Below are positions 15,959 through 20,383 of a stretch of DNA of 37,659 nucleotides, in pieces. The notes under the pieces were generated by a model. It was not told the DNA's origin, searched no databases, and saw nothing but the letters and a program-made list of their open reading frames with translations. Position numbers and translations under genes: made by a program. The stretch is taken from positions 1-37,659 of the forward strand of contig JAVLCF010000006.1 of NCBI GenBank assembly GCA_031581195.1, written 5' to 3'. Within the stretch, counting starts at the first letter, position 1. Each line of letters begins with the position of its first letter. Source of the stretch: Trueperaceae bacterium (GTDB lineage Bacteria; Deinococcota; Deinococci; Deinococcales; Trueperaceae).

Positions 15959-16004
15959 CCGCGGACGCCGCCTCCGCCCCGCGGCCCGCGGCACGGGGCT
16001 GCGG

Positions 16005-16010
16005 TACCCT
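16005..16010 (+). promoter_or_regulatory. Leaderless -10 box of tdk
   Basis: TACCCT ends 7 nt before ATG 16018; there is no ribosome-binding site. Confidence 0.6.
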
Positions 16011-16017
16011 GGTCGGC

Positions 16018-16638
16018 ATGCAGGCGCACCCGTACGGCGGTGGGTGGCTCGAGGTGGTCGTCGGGCCGATGTTCAGCGGGAAGTCCGAGGAACTCATCCG
16101 GCGCGTCACCCGCGCGTTGATCGCGAAGCAGGCGGTGCAGGTCTTCAAGCCGGCGATCGACGACCGCTACGAAGCGATCGCGGTCGCGAGTCACGCCGGC
16201 CGGACGCTGGAGGCGGTCGCCGTCGACGGCGCCGCCGACGTCGCCGCGAAGGTGGCGGACGGCACCGAGGTCGTGGCGATCGACGAAGCGCAGTTCTTCG
16301 ACGACGCCCTCGTCCCCCTCGTGCAGGATTTCGCCGACGCCGGCAAACGGATCGTGGTCGCCGGCCTCGACCTCGATTTCCGGGGGGAGCCGTTCGGGCC
16401 GGTCCCGACCCTCCTCGCGCGCGCGGAGCACGTCGAGAAGCTCACCGCGATCTGCCGCTGCGGGGCGGCGGCGACGCGCACGCAACGCCTCATCGGGGGG
16501 CACCCCGCCCACTACGACGACCCGGTCATCCTCGTCGGCGCGCAGGAGCGCTACGAGCCGCGCTGCCGCCGCTGCCACGACGTGCCGCGCGCCGCGCGCG
16601 CCGCCCCGTTGTTCGCCGCGGCGACCGCGCGGTCCTGA
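16018..16638 (+). CDS. tdk: Thymidine kinase (type II, zinc-binding)
   Basis: 206 residues. It phosphorylates thymidine to dTMP with ATP, the salvage route. Walker A GPMFSGKS at residues 16-23, the catalytic/Mg site in AIDEAQFF near residue 88, the lasso region [12 protein letters not shown] near 118-129, and four cysteines for the structural zinc: C-x-C in AICRCG near 147 and C-x-x-C in CRRC near 184. Length is as usual for the family (about 200). It is divergent from hslV and ends 9 bp from the end of the convergent aspS. Confidence 0.95.
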
Positions 16639-16647
16639 CGCGCCCCG

Positions 16648-17964
16648 TCAGGGGTGCAGGCGGCTGCCGTCGCGCGGGAAGGCCCGCGCGAAGCGGACGT
16701 TGGGGAGGCCGACGAGGAGCGCCGTGAGGCGTTCGGTCCCGATCGCGAAGCCGCCGTGGGGCGGCATGCCGTGCCGGAACACCTCGAGGTACCCCTCGAA
16801 GCGGCCGGGGTCCATCCCGCGCTTCTCGAGCTCGCGCACGAGGACGTCGGGGTCGTGCACGCGTTGCCCGCCGGACGTGATCTCGGTCCCGCGGAACAAC
16901 AGGTCGAGCCCGCGCGTCAGCCCGTCGCCCGTCGGGAAGGTGTAGAACGGTCGGGCGGCTTCGGGGTAGCGCGTGACGAACACGAAGTCGCTGCCGTGCT
17001 CCTCCTTCGCCCAGCGCCCGACGAGGCGTTCCGCTTCGGGGTCGAGGTCCTTGCCGCCCGAGACGTGCCCGTAGCGTTCCTCGACGAGGGTGCGCGCCTC
17101 GAGCAGCGGGATGCGGGGGAACGGCGCGTCGGCGAGGGGCGGCTCCGCCCCGAGCCGCTCCAGTTCGCCCGCGGCGCGGTCCCAGGTGCGACGGACCATG
17201 CTGCGCAGCAGCTGCTCCTGGAGATCCATGACGTCGCCCTCGTCGCGGATGAAGCCCAGCTCGACGTCGAGGCTGAGGTACTCCGCGAGGTGCCGGACGG
17301 TGTGCGACGCCTCGGCGCGGAAGACCGGGGCGGTCTCGTAGACGCGTTCGAAGACCGCGACCATGATCTGTTTGTAGAGCTGCGGCGACTGCGCGAGGTA
17401 GGCGCGGGTGCCGTAGTAGTCGACCTCGAACAGGTCCGCGCCGCCCTCCGCGCCGGCGGCGACGAGTTTCGGCGTGAAGATCTCGGTGAAGGCCGCGTCG
17501 TCGAGGAACGCACGGAACGCCGCGACGAGCTCCGCGGCGACCTTGCCGGTCGCCTGCGCTTCGGGCGTGCGGACGGTGACGGCACGGTACTGCAGCAGCG
17601 TCTCCGGCGCGGCGTGCCAGGACGCCTTCGGGAGCTCCACGGGGGGCGGCACGGTGGCTTCGGCGAGGACGTCGAGGGCGTCCGCCTGCACCTCGTACCC
17701 GCCGGGCGCCTTCGCGGACGCGGCGACGACGCCGCGCACCTCCACCGCACTTTCGGGGAGGGGGATGGTGGCGTCGCGCAGGACGCACTGCGCGAGGCCG
17801 GAGCGGTCGCGCAGCACGAGGAAGCGCACCCCCCCGAGGTCGCGGCGGGCGTGCACCCACCCGCGCAGCAGGACGCGTTCGCCCTCGTGCGCGGCCAGGT
17901 CGCGCGCGAGGGTCCGGGGCGTGGGGTCGGGGCCGGTGTCGGGGGCGGGCGTGGAGTCGGTCAC
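16648..17964 (-). CDS. aspS: Aspartyl-tRNA synthetase, short archaeal-type (probably non-discriminating)
   Basis: 438 residues from GTG 17964, with GAAAGGA about 5 nt upstream as ribosome-binding site. Residues about 10-105 are the OB-fold anticodon-binding domain (LLRGWVHARRDLGGVRFLVLRDR); the class II catalytic core follows, with AQSPQLYKQIMVA and PVFRAEASHTVRHLAEY (motif 2), and HGGFAIGTERL (motif 3) near the end, closing in FPRDGSRLHP. It lacks the large GAD insertion of the ~590-residue bacterial AspRS. By family knowledge (the Thermus/Deinococcus AspRS2 type) such enzymes often charge both tRNA-Asp and tRNA-Asn with Asp, with GatCAB converting the latter; this is inferred here. AsnRS was considered, but the KQIM and GMPPHGG signatures are AspRS-like. 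A leader ORF and terminator lie immediately upstream. Confidence 0.9.
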   Translation of the reverse strand: MTDSTPAPDTGPDPTPRTLARDLAAHEGERVLLRGWVHARRDLGGVRFLVLRDRSGLAQCVLRDATIPLPESAVEVRGVVAASAKAPGGYEVQADALDVLAEATVPPPVELPKASWHAAPETLLQYRAVTVRTPEAQATGKVAAELVAAFRAFLDDAAFTEIFTPKLVAAGAEGGADLFEVDYYGTRAYLAQSPQLYKQIMVAVFERVYETAPVFRAEASHTVRHLAEYLSLDVELGFIRDEGDVMDLQEQLLRSMVRRTWDRAAGELERLGAEPPLADAPFPRIPLLEARTLVEERYGHVSGGKDLDPEAERLVGRWAKEEHGSDFVFVTRYPEAARPFYTFPTGDGLTRGLDLLFRGTEITSGGQRVHDPDVLVRELEKRGMDPGRFEGYLEVFRHGMPPHGGFAIGTERLTALLVGLPNVRFARAFPRDGSRLHP

Positions 17965-17996
17965 GGCGTTCCTTTCGGGAGGGGCGGTGGGGACGC

Positions 17997-18029
17997 AAAA
18001 GAACGACCCCCGGGCGGGCCCGGGGGTCG
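17997..18029 (-). terminator. Intrinsic terminator in the aspS leader
   Basis: On the minus strand an 11-bp perfect stem (18029-18019 with 18014-18004, CCCG loop) is followed by TTCTTTT (18003-17997). It lies after the leader ORF stop and 32 nt before aspS, so it would stop transcripts before aspS unless prevented. The 5' arm TCGACCCC (18030-18023) is also complementary to GGGGTCGA at 18070-18063 in the leader ORF. Confidence 0.85.
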
Positions 18030-18049
18030 ATGCGAGGCGGCGTGCGGCG

Positions 18050-18163
18050 TCACGCCCCAGGCTCGACCCCGCGCGGATTGTCGGTCCGCCCCTGATCGTT
18101 CGACGCCCACGCGGTGTGCGCGGGGGCGAACGTCGACGGGGTCGCGGGGCGGCGGGCGGTCAT
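18050..18163 (-). CDS. Candidate 37-residue leader peptide of aspS
   Basis: A 37-codon ORF, ATG 18163 to TGA 18052-18050, 7 nt downstream of a -10 box and so probably translated from a leaderless mRNA. Its sequence includes S-N-D-Q-G-R-T-D-N (residues 21-29): two adjacent Asn/Asp pairs in codons AAC GAT and GAC AAT, two of which end in T and are expected to be rare in such a GC-rich genome. Two 8-base segments inside it (18144-18137 and 18071-18064) are perfectly complementary, and the second can instead pair with the 5' arm of the following terminator. This is the layout of an amino-acid-sensing leader peptide. It is unlike any small protein I recognise; a chance ORF cannot be excluded. Confidence 0.6.
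   Translation of the reverse strand: MTARRPATPSTFAPAHTAWASNDQGRTDNPRGVEPGA
18063..18070 (-). promoter_or_regulatory. Candidate antiterminator segment of the aspS leader
   Basis: GGGGTCGA (minus strand 18070-18063, codons 32-34 of the leader ORF) is a perfect complement of TCGACCCC at 18030-18023, the 5' arm of the terminator. Pairing of the two would prevent the terminator. An overlapping CGGGGTCG (18071-18064) also pairs with CGACCCCG at 18144-18137 in codons 7-9. Confidence 0.5.
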
Positions 18164-18170
18164 GCGTGCG

Positions 18171-18200
18171 AGCGTAGCCCCCGCGCGACGCGCCCGTCAA
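18171..18200 (-). promoter_or_regulatory. Promoter of the aspS leader (-35 TTGACG, 18 bp, -10 TACGCT)
   Basis: On the minus strand TTGACG (18200-18195) and TACGCT (18176-18171) are 18 bp apart, and the -10 ends 7 nt before ATG 18163. It is the only protein-gene promoter noticed here with a clear TTGACG -35; the other three are those of the mini-RNA array. Confidence 0.75.
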
Positions 18201-18215
18201 CGCGGGGTCCGCCGG

Positions 18216-18668
18216 TCATCCCCCGGTGGCGCGTGGGGTGGGGGGTGCCGGGGGCGCGGCGTCGAGGGCGGTCCGGACGGCGGCGGCGAGCGGCGCGATG
18301 GGGCTGTACGCTGCGAAGGCGTCGGCGTCGAGCCACGCGTACGCCTCGTGCTCCGCACTGAGGACGACGGCGGGGTCCGGGGCCTGCGGGGTGGCGCGGT
18401 AGACGACGACGACCATCGGCTCGCCCGCCCGCGACGCGGCGTACGCCGTCCAGGGGCGCACCTCGACGGCGACGTCGAGGCCCGACTCCTCGCACACCTC
18501 GCGGCGGGCGGCGTCGCGGGGCGCTTCGCCCGGCTCGATGCGGCCCGACAGCGCCTCCCAGACGCCGGGGGCGGCCTCCGCGCCGGCGGCGCGCCGGAGC
18601 GCCAGCACGCGGCCCGCGTGGAGGACGAGGACGGCGACGGCGGCGACGTGGTTGGCGGCGTTCGGCAC
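18216..18668 (-). CDS. NUDIX hydrolase
   Basis: 150 residues from GTG 18668. NUDIX proteins hydrolyse nucleoside diphosphates linked to another group. The NUDIX box G-x5-E-x7-R-E-V-C-E-E-S-G-L is complete at residues 42-64 (GRIEPGE through REVCEESGL). The N-terminus AANHVAAVAVLVLHAGRVLALRRA forms the first strands of the fold. The substrate cannot be read from the sequence. A leaderless -10 box 7 nt upstream supports the GTG start and separate transcription from the phosphorylase gene that ends 26 bp before it. The last 20 residues are Ala/Pro-rich. Confidence 0.88.
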   Translation of the reverse strand: MPNAANHVAAVAVLVLHAGRVLALRRAAGAEAAPGVWEALSGRIEPGEAPRDAARREVCEESGLDVAVEVRPWTAYAASRAGEPMVVVVYRATPQAPDPAVVLSAEHEAYAWLDADAFAAYSPIAPLAAAVRTALDAAPPAPPTPRATGG

Positions 18669-18675
18669 GGCGGAC

Positions 18676-18681
18676 AGGGTA
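18676..18681 (-). promoter_or_regulatory. Leaderless -10 box of the NUDIX gene
   Basis: TACCCT on the minus strand ends 7 nt before GTG 18668, within the 26-bp gap after the phosphorylase gene. Confidence 0.55.
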
Positions 18682-18694
18682 GCCCGCCCGGCGC

Positions 18695-20383
18695 TCAGGG
18701 GCCGGCCTCCGCGATCCAGCGGACCTCGTACGGGGCGAGGTCGTGCGGGCCGGCCTGCCACCGCTCGCCGGTGAGCAGGTCGCGGCCGGCGGGGAGGTCC
18801 GCCCGCGCGTCGCGACCGGCGAGCTCGTGAACGGCGGTGACGGGCGCGTCGTCGCCCCGGCGGATCGCGAGGACGCCCGGCGGGGCGTCGGGGATCGCGT
18901 GGGGGGCGTTCGGGTGGAAGGCGGGGTGCGACCGCCGCGTGCGGAGCAGGTGCTGCAGAACGTGCAGGATGCGGGCGCGGCGCGAGGTGGGGTCGGCGAG
19001 CTCGCGGAGGGTGGCGTCGGCGTCGAGCTTCGCGCGGTTGATGGCGCGTGGCGTGCCGGTGGCGTGCGCCAGGTCCGGCGCGCCGCGCGAGCCCAGCAGG
19101 CTGTGCAGGTACAGCGCCGGCACGCCGGGGAGCGCCATCATGACCGCGTGCGCCGCGGCGAACCGGGCGACCTCGCGCTCGAGCGGTTCCTCGACGCTCG
19201 GCGTGCGCAGCGCGTCGAGGTAGCCGACGTTCAGTTCGTAGGGGGTCTCGCGGCCGTCCGCGTCGCGCTTCCGGCCGACCTGGCCGCCCAGGGCGAGGGT
19301 CCGCTCGACGAGGCGGTCGATCGCGTCGGGGGGCAGGATCGACTCGACGGCGCGCACGCCGATCCCGTCGTGGCTGGCGAGGAAGTTCAGGAACCACGTC
19401 GCGTCGCTCGGGGTGCGCAGGTCCGCCGCCCACGTTCGGAGGGGACCGACGTCGCCGGTCGTCATCGTGTGCAGGACGAGGGGCGGGAGGGCGAAGTTGT
19501 AGACCATCTGCGCTTCGTCGTCCCCCGACCCGAAGTACGCGACGTTCTCCGCGTGCGGCACGTTCGTTTCGGTGAGCACCACGACGTACGGGGCGGCGAC
19601 CTCGAGCACGGCGCGCAGGAGGCGGATCAGGCCGTGCGTGTGCGGGTGGTGCGCGCAGGGCGTCCCCAACTCCTTCCAGAGGTACGTCACGGCGTCCAGG
19701 CGCAGCACCTGCGCACCGTGCTCGACGTACGCGAGCAGGACCGAGACGATCTCGCGCAGGAGCGTCGGGTCGCGGTAGTCGAGGTCCACCTGGTCGGGTC
19801 CGAACGTCGTCCAGACCCAGCGGTCGCCGTCGTGGGCGGCGAACTTCGTGAGGAGCGGCGTCGTGCGAGGCCGCACGACGCCGCGCACGTCGGCGTCCGG
19901 CGCTTCGCTGCGGAACCAGGTGCGTTGCGGGGCGTCGCCGCGCAGGTAGGCGGCGAACCAGTCCCCCTGCGCCGAGGCGTGGTTCACGACCGCGTCCACC
20001 ATGAGGCGGTGGTGCGCGGCGAGGCCCTCGACGTCGCGCCACGTGCCGTAGCGCGGGTCGACGGCGTCGTAGCTCTTCACGGCGAACCCGTCGTCGGACG
20101 ACCAGGGGTGGAAGGGGAGGACGTGGACGGTGGAGACGGTGTCGGCGAGCGGCCCCTCGAGCCACGTCCGGAGGGTGCGGAGGGGGGCTTCGCCGTCGCG
20201 GCGGAGGGCGTCGGCGTACGTGATCAACAGCGCGTCGCGTTCGCTCATGCGCCGTGCGGGCGGGACGGCGGGGGCCGGGTGCGCCTCCCGGAACGCCGTC
20301 GCGACGCGCAGCAGGTCGTCGGCGAGGGCGTCGCCGACCTCGCCGTAGAGGCGTCGCGCTTCGCGCCGGACGGGGGCGCTCAC
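18695..20383 (-). CDS. GH13 sucrose-phosphorylase-like enzyme (possible glucosylglycerate phosphorylase)
   Basis: 562 residues from GTG 20383, overlapping the GT4 stop (GTGA). Subfamily GH13_18 enzymes split an alpha-glucoside with phosphate to glucose 1-phosphate. Seen: VHVLPFHPWSSDDGFAVKSYDAVDPRYGTW near residue 86, MVDAVVNHAS near 128 (region I), nucleophile D230 in VLRLDAV, acid/base E272 in VVLTETNVPH, and the third Asp D339 in ASHDGIG. The extra N-terminal helix region (1-85) and the match to the YcjM type make glucosylglycerate phosphorylase more likely than sucrose phosphorylase, but specificity is an inference. Last gene of the LacI/ABC cluster; imported glucosides are its likely substrate. 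Confidence 0.8.
   Translation of the reverse strand: MSAPVRREARRLYGEVGDALADDLLRVATAFREAHPAPAVPPARRMSERDALLITYADALRRDGEAPLRTLRTWLEGPLADTVSTVHVLPFHPWSSDDGFAVKSYDAVDPRYGTWRDVEGLAAHHRLMVDAVVNHASAQGDWFAAYLRGDAPQRTWFRSEAPDADVRGVVRPRTTPLLTKFAAHDGDRWVWTTFGPDQVDLDYRDPTLLREIVSVLLAYVEHGAQVLRLDAVTYLWKELGTPCAHHPHTHGLIRLLRAVLEVAAPYVVVLTETNVPHAENVAYFGSGDDEAQMVYNFALPPLVLHTMTTGDVGPLRTWAADLRTPSDATWFLNFLASHDGIGVRAVESILPPDAIDRLVERTLALGGQVGRKRDADGRETPYELNVGYLDALRTPSVEEPLEREVARFAAAHAVMMALPGVPALYLHSLLGSRGAPDLAHATGTPRAINRAKLDADATLRELADPTSRRARILHVLQHLLRTRRSHPAFHPNAPHAIPDAPPGVLAIRRGDDAPVTAVHELAGRDARADLPAGRDLLTGERWQAGPHDLAPYEVRWIAEAGP

Follow-up and report, generated by a model that had tools for sequence, protein, structure and literature searches.

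A predicted asparagine-type leader-peptide attenuator before the non-discriminating AspRS gene of Trueperaceae, Thermaceae and their relatives

Organization of the aspS2 Locus

The stretch of DNA analyzed here (the window; 37,659 nucleotides of a Trueperaceae genome) carries on its minus strand aspS2, annotated from family profiles and structural relatives as a non-discriminating aspartate--tRNA(Asn) ligase of 438 aa (17964-16648, with a GTG start at 17964). The encoded AspRS lies above the curated cut-offs of NCBIfam NF003483 (525.2 bits, cut-off 353) and TIGR00458 (371.4 bits, cut-off 368.4), and its closest solved relative is AspRS2 of T. thermophilus (1n9w, 3kfu), the non-discriminating enzyme of the transamidosome. 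By these similarities, the product is classified as an archaeal-type, non-discriminating AspRS, making Asp-tRNA(Asn) for asparagine synthesis.

The window genome additionally encodes an AsnRS, an ordinary bacterial AspRS and GatB. A first-pass annotation of this DNA had pointed to an AspRS that charges both tRNAs; the enzyme is more precisely a dedicated Asp-tRNA(Asn) ligase, encoded in addition to an ordinary AspRS. Across the order, AsnRS is found in 104 of 111 genomes and GatB in 101, and a match to an AsnB-type asparagine synthetase in only 36, including the window genome, where the match is partial. In Thermus and Deinococcus, the second AspRS and GatCAB form Asn on tRNA(Asn) (PMC4206432). 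For this reason, and because AsnRS, an ordinary AspRS and GatB are also encoded, the regulated function is expected to be tRNA-dependent asparagine synthesis. The AsnRS and bacterial-type AspRS genes of the window genome lie close together on the same strand (L105, G000:C41:12712-16740), and no similar leader was seen there.

Upstream of aspS2, the minus strand contains a promoter made of TTGACG (18200-18195), an 18-nt spacer and TACGCT (18176-18171). Only 7 nt separate the -10 element from the ATG (18163) of a 37-codon leader ORF, a leaderless arrangement. This ORF (18163-18050), supported by the ORF listing and by comparison with orthologues, encodes MTARRPATPSTFAPAHTAWASNDQGRTDNPRGVEPGA, with Asn22-Asp23 (AAC GAT, 18100-18095) and Asp28-Asn29 (GAC AAT, 18082-18077). 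It is followed by an 11-bp stem (18029-18004), delimited by folding and comparison, of which CGACCCCCGGG (segment 3, 18029-18019) forms the 5' arm and CCCGGGGGTCG (segment 4, 18014-18004) the 3' arm. The stem has a folding energy of -24.7 kcal/mol (z -4.0; equaled by 0 of 200 shuffles), and the U-tract TTCTTTT (18003-17997) follows directly. The promoter, leaderless ORF, both codon pairs and terminator all lie exactly where the first-pass annotation had placed them. The promoter-to-ATG arrangement occurs twice on the two strands of the 37.7-kb window, and only at aspS is it accompanied by a short ORF.

Three 8-base complements had also been described. All three are present, and as the annotation itself had cautioned, such GC-rich complements arise easily: by itself, the pairing does not exceed chance in this DNA, and the pairing of segments 1 and 2 is not seen as conserved. 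The folding energy of the whole window leader is not distinctive either (z -1.45). Stability alone is thus uninformative, and as small complements are unremarkable in GC-rich DNA, conservation is needed as the deciding evidence.

Conservation revises two of the elements. Segment 2, the 5' strand of the putative antiterminator, had been equated with GGGGTCGA (18070-18063), whose partner is TCGACCCC (18030-18023; duplex of -15.5 kcal/mol). This segment is peculiar to the window genome; the alignment supports instead CCTGGGG (18061-18055), at or just 5' of the leader stop (-10 to +1 relative to it) and homologous to CTCGGGG of the relatives. It pairs with CCCCGGG (18025-18019), and the duplex of segments 2 and 3 amounts to -13.5 to -15.2 kcal/mol. 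The GGGGTCGA pairing could supplement this homologous segment. Likewise, ribosome stalling had been placed at codons 22-23, which are retained as a second, genome-specific predicted site, but the homologous predicted stall site is codons 28-29, where the Asn codon is 9 codons from the stop, like in most Trueperaceae. Compared with its sister genome (G106), the window leader contains a 15-nt in-frame insertion and has two Asn/Asp sites. Codons 22-23 match Asp-Asp-Asn of the sister leader, by which they are identified as the ancestral site, changed beside the insertion.

Conservation of the Leader across the Order

The upstream DNA of 96 aspS2 orthologues was compared. They come from every one of the five families of the order and from 28 genera, with Thermus and Meiothermus among those that have the leader. 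A script that required TTGAC, a spacer, a TANNNT-like -10 element and a start codon, and that ignored amino acids, detected short ORFs in 92 of the 96 regions. Three more leaders were placed by hand, because a contig ends or the -35 element deviates, giving an intact short leader ORF in 95 of 96. In these 95 regions, promoter, start, Asn/Asp codons, segment 2 at the stop and hairpin all recur, so that the ORF and Asn/Asp codons on whose presence in relatives the first-pass annotation had staked its proposal are indeed conserved. Nearly all regions have TTGAC, a spacer of 17-18 nt and TANNNT, with the start 7-11 nt past the -10 element. In the one exception (G004), aspS2 lies directly behind another gene and the element is absent.

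A NUDIX ORF ends just upstream of the window leader, at 18216, and the hairpin could in principle be the terminator of that gene, with chance complementarity of a kind common in GC-rich DNA. However, the promoter sits between the NUDIX gene and the hairpin, and the upstream genes vary among the relatives while the leader is retained. This conservation already contradicts the NUDIX explanation, to which we give practically no chance.

The leaders vary from 7 to 37 codons. Within the genus of the window, the lengths are 37, 32, 28 and 28 codons, with all differences in frame; examples of other leaders are MTPFAARLQDDNRERWRPGA, MKCFFNNSADDDN, MRGLLNNDR, MLRADDNL and MRPRLLNNG. Across families, the peptides have almost nothing in common except the Asn/Asp codons: Asn is retained although sequence and length turn over almost completely. 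It occurs in 77 of 78 distinct leaders and makes up 12.3% of leader residues, versus 1.7% in AspRS2 itself. In 27 of the 28 genera, even the poorest leader contains Asn, versus 7.2 genera expected; as genera are treated as independent, which they are not fully, the corresponding P value is overstated. One leader (G091) has Asp but no Asn, and that of G110 is degenerate. The proposed coupling to both amino acids agrees with the codons for Asn, but Asp is present in only 59 of the 78 distinct leaders and missing from about a quarter. Judged from these sequences, Asn is the constant feature of the leaders and the main signal.

The leader ORF is probably translated. A functional small protein, expressed from its own transcription unit with the hairpin merely as its terminator, would explain why the ORF has a promoter and a terminator of its own. 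This is very improbable, as peptides of 7 to 37 residues are alike across families only in their Asn/Asp codons, the leader stop overlaps or abuts the antiterminator segment, and the unit is tied to aspS2.

Directly 3' of the leader stop, a CGTCG motif is kept in most Trueperaceae (CGCCG, 18049-18045, in the window); it has no evident pairing partner.

In most groups, the hairpin before aspS is followed by a U-tract. Thermus proper deviates: its U-tract is mostly missing (on average 2.3 U in 8 nt, versus 5-6 in most other groups), and its hairpin, which is more stable (-30 kcal/mol), stops a short distance from a Shine-Dalgarno sequence. An example is Thermus parvatiensis (L116, 1340-1520), with a very strong aspS2 hairpin near the Shine-Dalgarno sequence and no U-tract. 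The output step may therefore differ in Thermus proper, where termination is uncertain. These features would suit control of translation or a non-canonical termination, in which a hairpin close to the ribosome site of aspS2 would hold back expression until it is unfolded by a stalled ribosome. Given the canonical U-tract in the window and most other groups, and its retention in the trpE leaders of some Thermus species, this explanation is improbable for the element as a whole, and may hold for Thermus proper alone.

Geometry and Pairing of the Segments

The position of segment 2 depends on the group. It overlaps the stop in most Trueperaceae (-12 to +1 relative to the stop) and lies just 3' of it (+3 to +12) in most Thermaceae and in an Oceanithermus-like family. 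The distance from Asn to the stop is 9 codons (27 nt) in most Trueperaceae and 2-3 codons in the other two groups. Codons and segment 2 thus shift together, and in all three groups a ribosome at the stop could reach segment 2. Conservation covers the architecture, the identity of the codons and the geometry.

When the RNA in front of the ribosome is folded by partition function, with an assumed footprint of 13 nt, the result is consistent with a switch. In Trueperaceae, segment 3 pairs upstream with a computed probability of 0.35 when the ribosome is at the stop and of 0.83 when it is stalled; the corresponding values for Thermaceae are 0.24 and 0.55. In some Thermaceae, a stall at the last Asn frees segment 2 only partly under this assumed footprint; a stall 1-2 codons earlier frees more.

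In Trueperaceae, segments 2 and 3 of one genome form better pairs than segments swapped between genomes (0 of 5000 permutations, ancestry uncorrected), and own pairs are no better than swapped ones in Thermaceae or the Oceanithermus-like family. With the segment 2 start fixed at last-Asn+12, dinucleotide shuffling gave a mean z of -1.7 in Trueperaceae and about 0 in the latter two groups, because GC runs pair regardless. The alignment of relatives that the first-pass annotation had suggested shows conservation of ORF, codons and terminator, but not compensatory change beyond shuffles: covariation between segments 2 and 3 is weak within Trueperaceae, with two pairs changed on both sides and a score matched by 53 of 500 shuffles, since the core is nearly invariant. 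The RNAalifold consensus is likewise weak.

The segment 1 of the first-pass annotation finds no support in the alignment as a conserved element. A protector hairpin between segments 1 and 2, as in trp leaders but inessential to the class, is not a general feature; a hairpin of this kind over the Asp codons is visible in one family (f3) only. By folding, an untranslated leader is predicted to favor pairing of segments 2 and 3, i.e., read-through.

Specificity and Leaders of Other Genes

A covariance model built from 28 Trueperaceae leaders gave one strong match in each of 32 Trueperaceae genomes, corresponding to aspS2 wherever coordinates were compared. Thermaceae gave weak matches, among them leaderless leaders 5' of trpE and of ilvB; family searches confirmed the downstream gene for two of the trpE cases and for ilvB. 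The trpE leaders contain Trp-Trp codons (MTLPSVLWWPG, MVRPFARWWSG, MRIFAAWGWWPG), and the ilvB leader MRSVLALSLALVLIVGPAGGGA contains Leu, Val and Ile codons. Inspection directly 5' of trpE revealed Trp-rich leaders in other families too, e.g., MLQVPFYPWWWPG and MNAYVTYWWWQPEKPRV, in a scan that selected for Trp. As Asn, Trp and branched-chain codons each match the gene downstream, the identity of the regulatory codon goes with the gene, which is what attenuation demands. Five weak matches (L205, L207, L208, L210 and L211) are not attenuators and were set aside as chance; L209 was assigned to neither group.

In Thermus and relatives, leaderless Trp-Trp leaders, an antiterminator and a terminator lie directly 5' of trpE (L201, G055:C3:17400-18100; L199, L202, L206 and L212), and some Thermus species keep the U-tract. 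The leader of Thermus ilvB, an acetolactate synthase gene (L200, G049:C106:1284000-1284900), is a candidate branched-chain amino acid attenuator. The conserved leader 5' of trpE in Trueperaceae is of another kind, marked by a SWTGxLGRWR-like motif (L217, L219, L222 and L224); its peptide might serve in arrest or in attenuation.

Based on the conservation in 95 of 96 regions, the single strong match per genome and the codons that follow the gene, the mechanism of the first-pass annotation, in which translation of an Asn/Asp leader peptide would govern attenuation of aspS, is largely supported at the sequence level, with the corrections given above.

Proposed Mechanism

We consider it very likely, with a probability of about 0.88, that the non-discriminating AspRS gene is controlled by ribosome-mediated transcription attenuation sensing Asn-tRNA(Asn). 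From sequence and folding, we infer as follows how transcription starts, where ribosomes stall, when transcription terminates and how the system responds to Asn. The transcript would begin at or beside the leader AUG, and a ribosome would consequently load at once. When Asn-tRNA, together with Asp-tRNA, is plentiful, the ribosome would reach the leader stop and cover segment 2; segment 3 would then be free to form the hairpin with segment 4, and transcription would stop 5' of aspS2. When Asn-tRNA(Asn) is scarce, the ribosome would stall at the Asn/Asp codons and leave segment 2 exposed, and its pairing with segment 3 would prevent the terminator and allow expression of aspS2. AspRS2, with GatCAB, would then restore Asn-tRNA(Asn).

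A further reading can be proposed tentatively, although we judge it somewhat less probable than its opposite: the attenuator may read the amidated end product and not charging as such. EF-Tu and the transamidosome should withhold Asp-tRNA(Asn), the misacylated intermediate, from the ribosome, so that ribosomes would stall on Asn codons when the throughput of GatCAB falls behind. In that case, the leader would measure what the transamidosome delivers and adjust the synthetase accordingly, and this gauge would have been retained from the ancestor of the order onward.

No Asn-type leader-peptide attenuator and no aspS case was found in the open-access literature. If the attenuation proposed here is correct, no earlier attenuator with an Asn-type leader peptide would be on record in the literature searched, and tRNA-dependent asparagine synthesis would be coupled to the level of its own product. 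Classical attenuation with leaderless leaders would also gain a range that takes in Trueperaceae, Thermaceae and their relatives and that includes Asn, Trp and the branched-chain amino acids at the least. In Thermus, which is grown in the laboratory, it could provide a simple reporter of the balance between Asp-tRNA(Asn) and Asn-tRNA(Asn).

Comparison with Known Attenuation Systems

The aspS2 element shows several sequence features of the attenuator class: a leader ORF with cognate codons and an intrinsic terminator (its U-tract missing in Thermus proper), an antiterminator that, by sequence and folding, cannot coexist with the terminator and that a ribosome would cover or uncover depending on where it stands, and a regulated gene whose function relates to the amino acid that the regulatory codons specify (the Asn pathway here, like Trp for trpE and branched-chain amino acids for ilvB). 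On these features, it is assigned to ribosome-mediated attenuation of the classical kind; the target and the amino acid are new.

The trp, his, pheA, pheST and ilv attenuators of Proteobacteria and Actinobacteria share the cognate-codon leader ORF, the mutually exclusive antiterminator and U-tailed terminator, and a stop placed such that the ribosome can mask segment 2. The aspS2 leader differs by its Asn (with Asp) codons, its target, an enzyme of tRNA-dependent amino-acid synthesis, its leaderless start, the lack of a conserved protector segment 1 and its occurrence in Deinococcota. The leaders before trpE and ilvB in this order likewise have a leaderless ORF, a stop beside a GGGGC-type segment 2 and a terminator close to the gene, and differ in their Trp or Leu/Val/Ile codons. 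An attenuator before T. thermophilus trpE is said to have been described in an older report. Leaderless cysteine attenuators of mycobacteria, reportedly described by Canestrari et al. in 2020 (cited in PMC9031893), likewise use a short ORF with a leaderless start and an abundance of one amino acid to control the expression of what lies downstream; they differ in the amino acid, the phylum and the target genes. A survey of 2010 found no amino-acid leader peptides outside Proteobacteria and Actinobacteria but its own His leaders (PMC2965389), and a T-box survey of 2008 lists only ile and gly T-boxes for Deinococcus radiodurans (PMC2494555).

Among aspS orthologues of other phyla (L120-L186), no similar leader was seen, and three of them, all from Bacillota (L120-L122), have a T-box (RF00230). 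A T-box-like RNA that senses tRNA directly, without translation, is conceivable also for aspS2, as the orthologous gene is preceded by T-boxes in Clostridium and other Bacillota. Nevertheless, the conserved feature here is an ORF, no T-box or other Rfam family matched the leader, and RF00230 gave no covariance-model match at E up to 5 in window positions 16000-20000, nor any match in two Deinococcota loci, which makes such an RNA highly implausible. In Bacillota, the T-box places the same gene family under control of tRNA charging by binding tRNA directly, with no leader peptide; the aspS2 element has an ORF and no T-box. The attenuator proposed for aspS2 would thus be another case in which the regulatory input is kept and the sensor changed.
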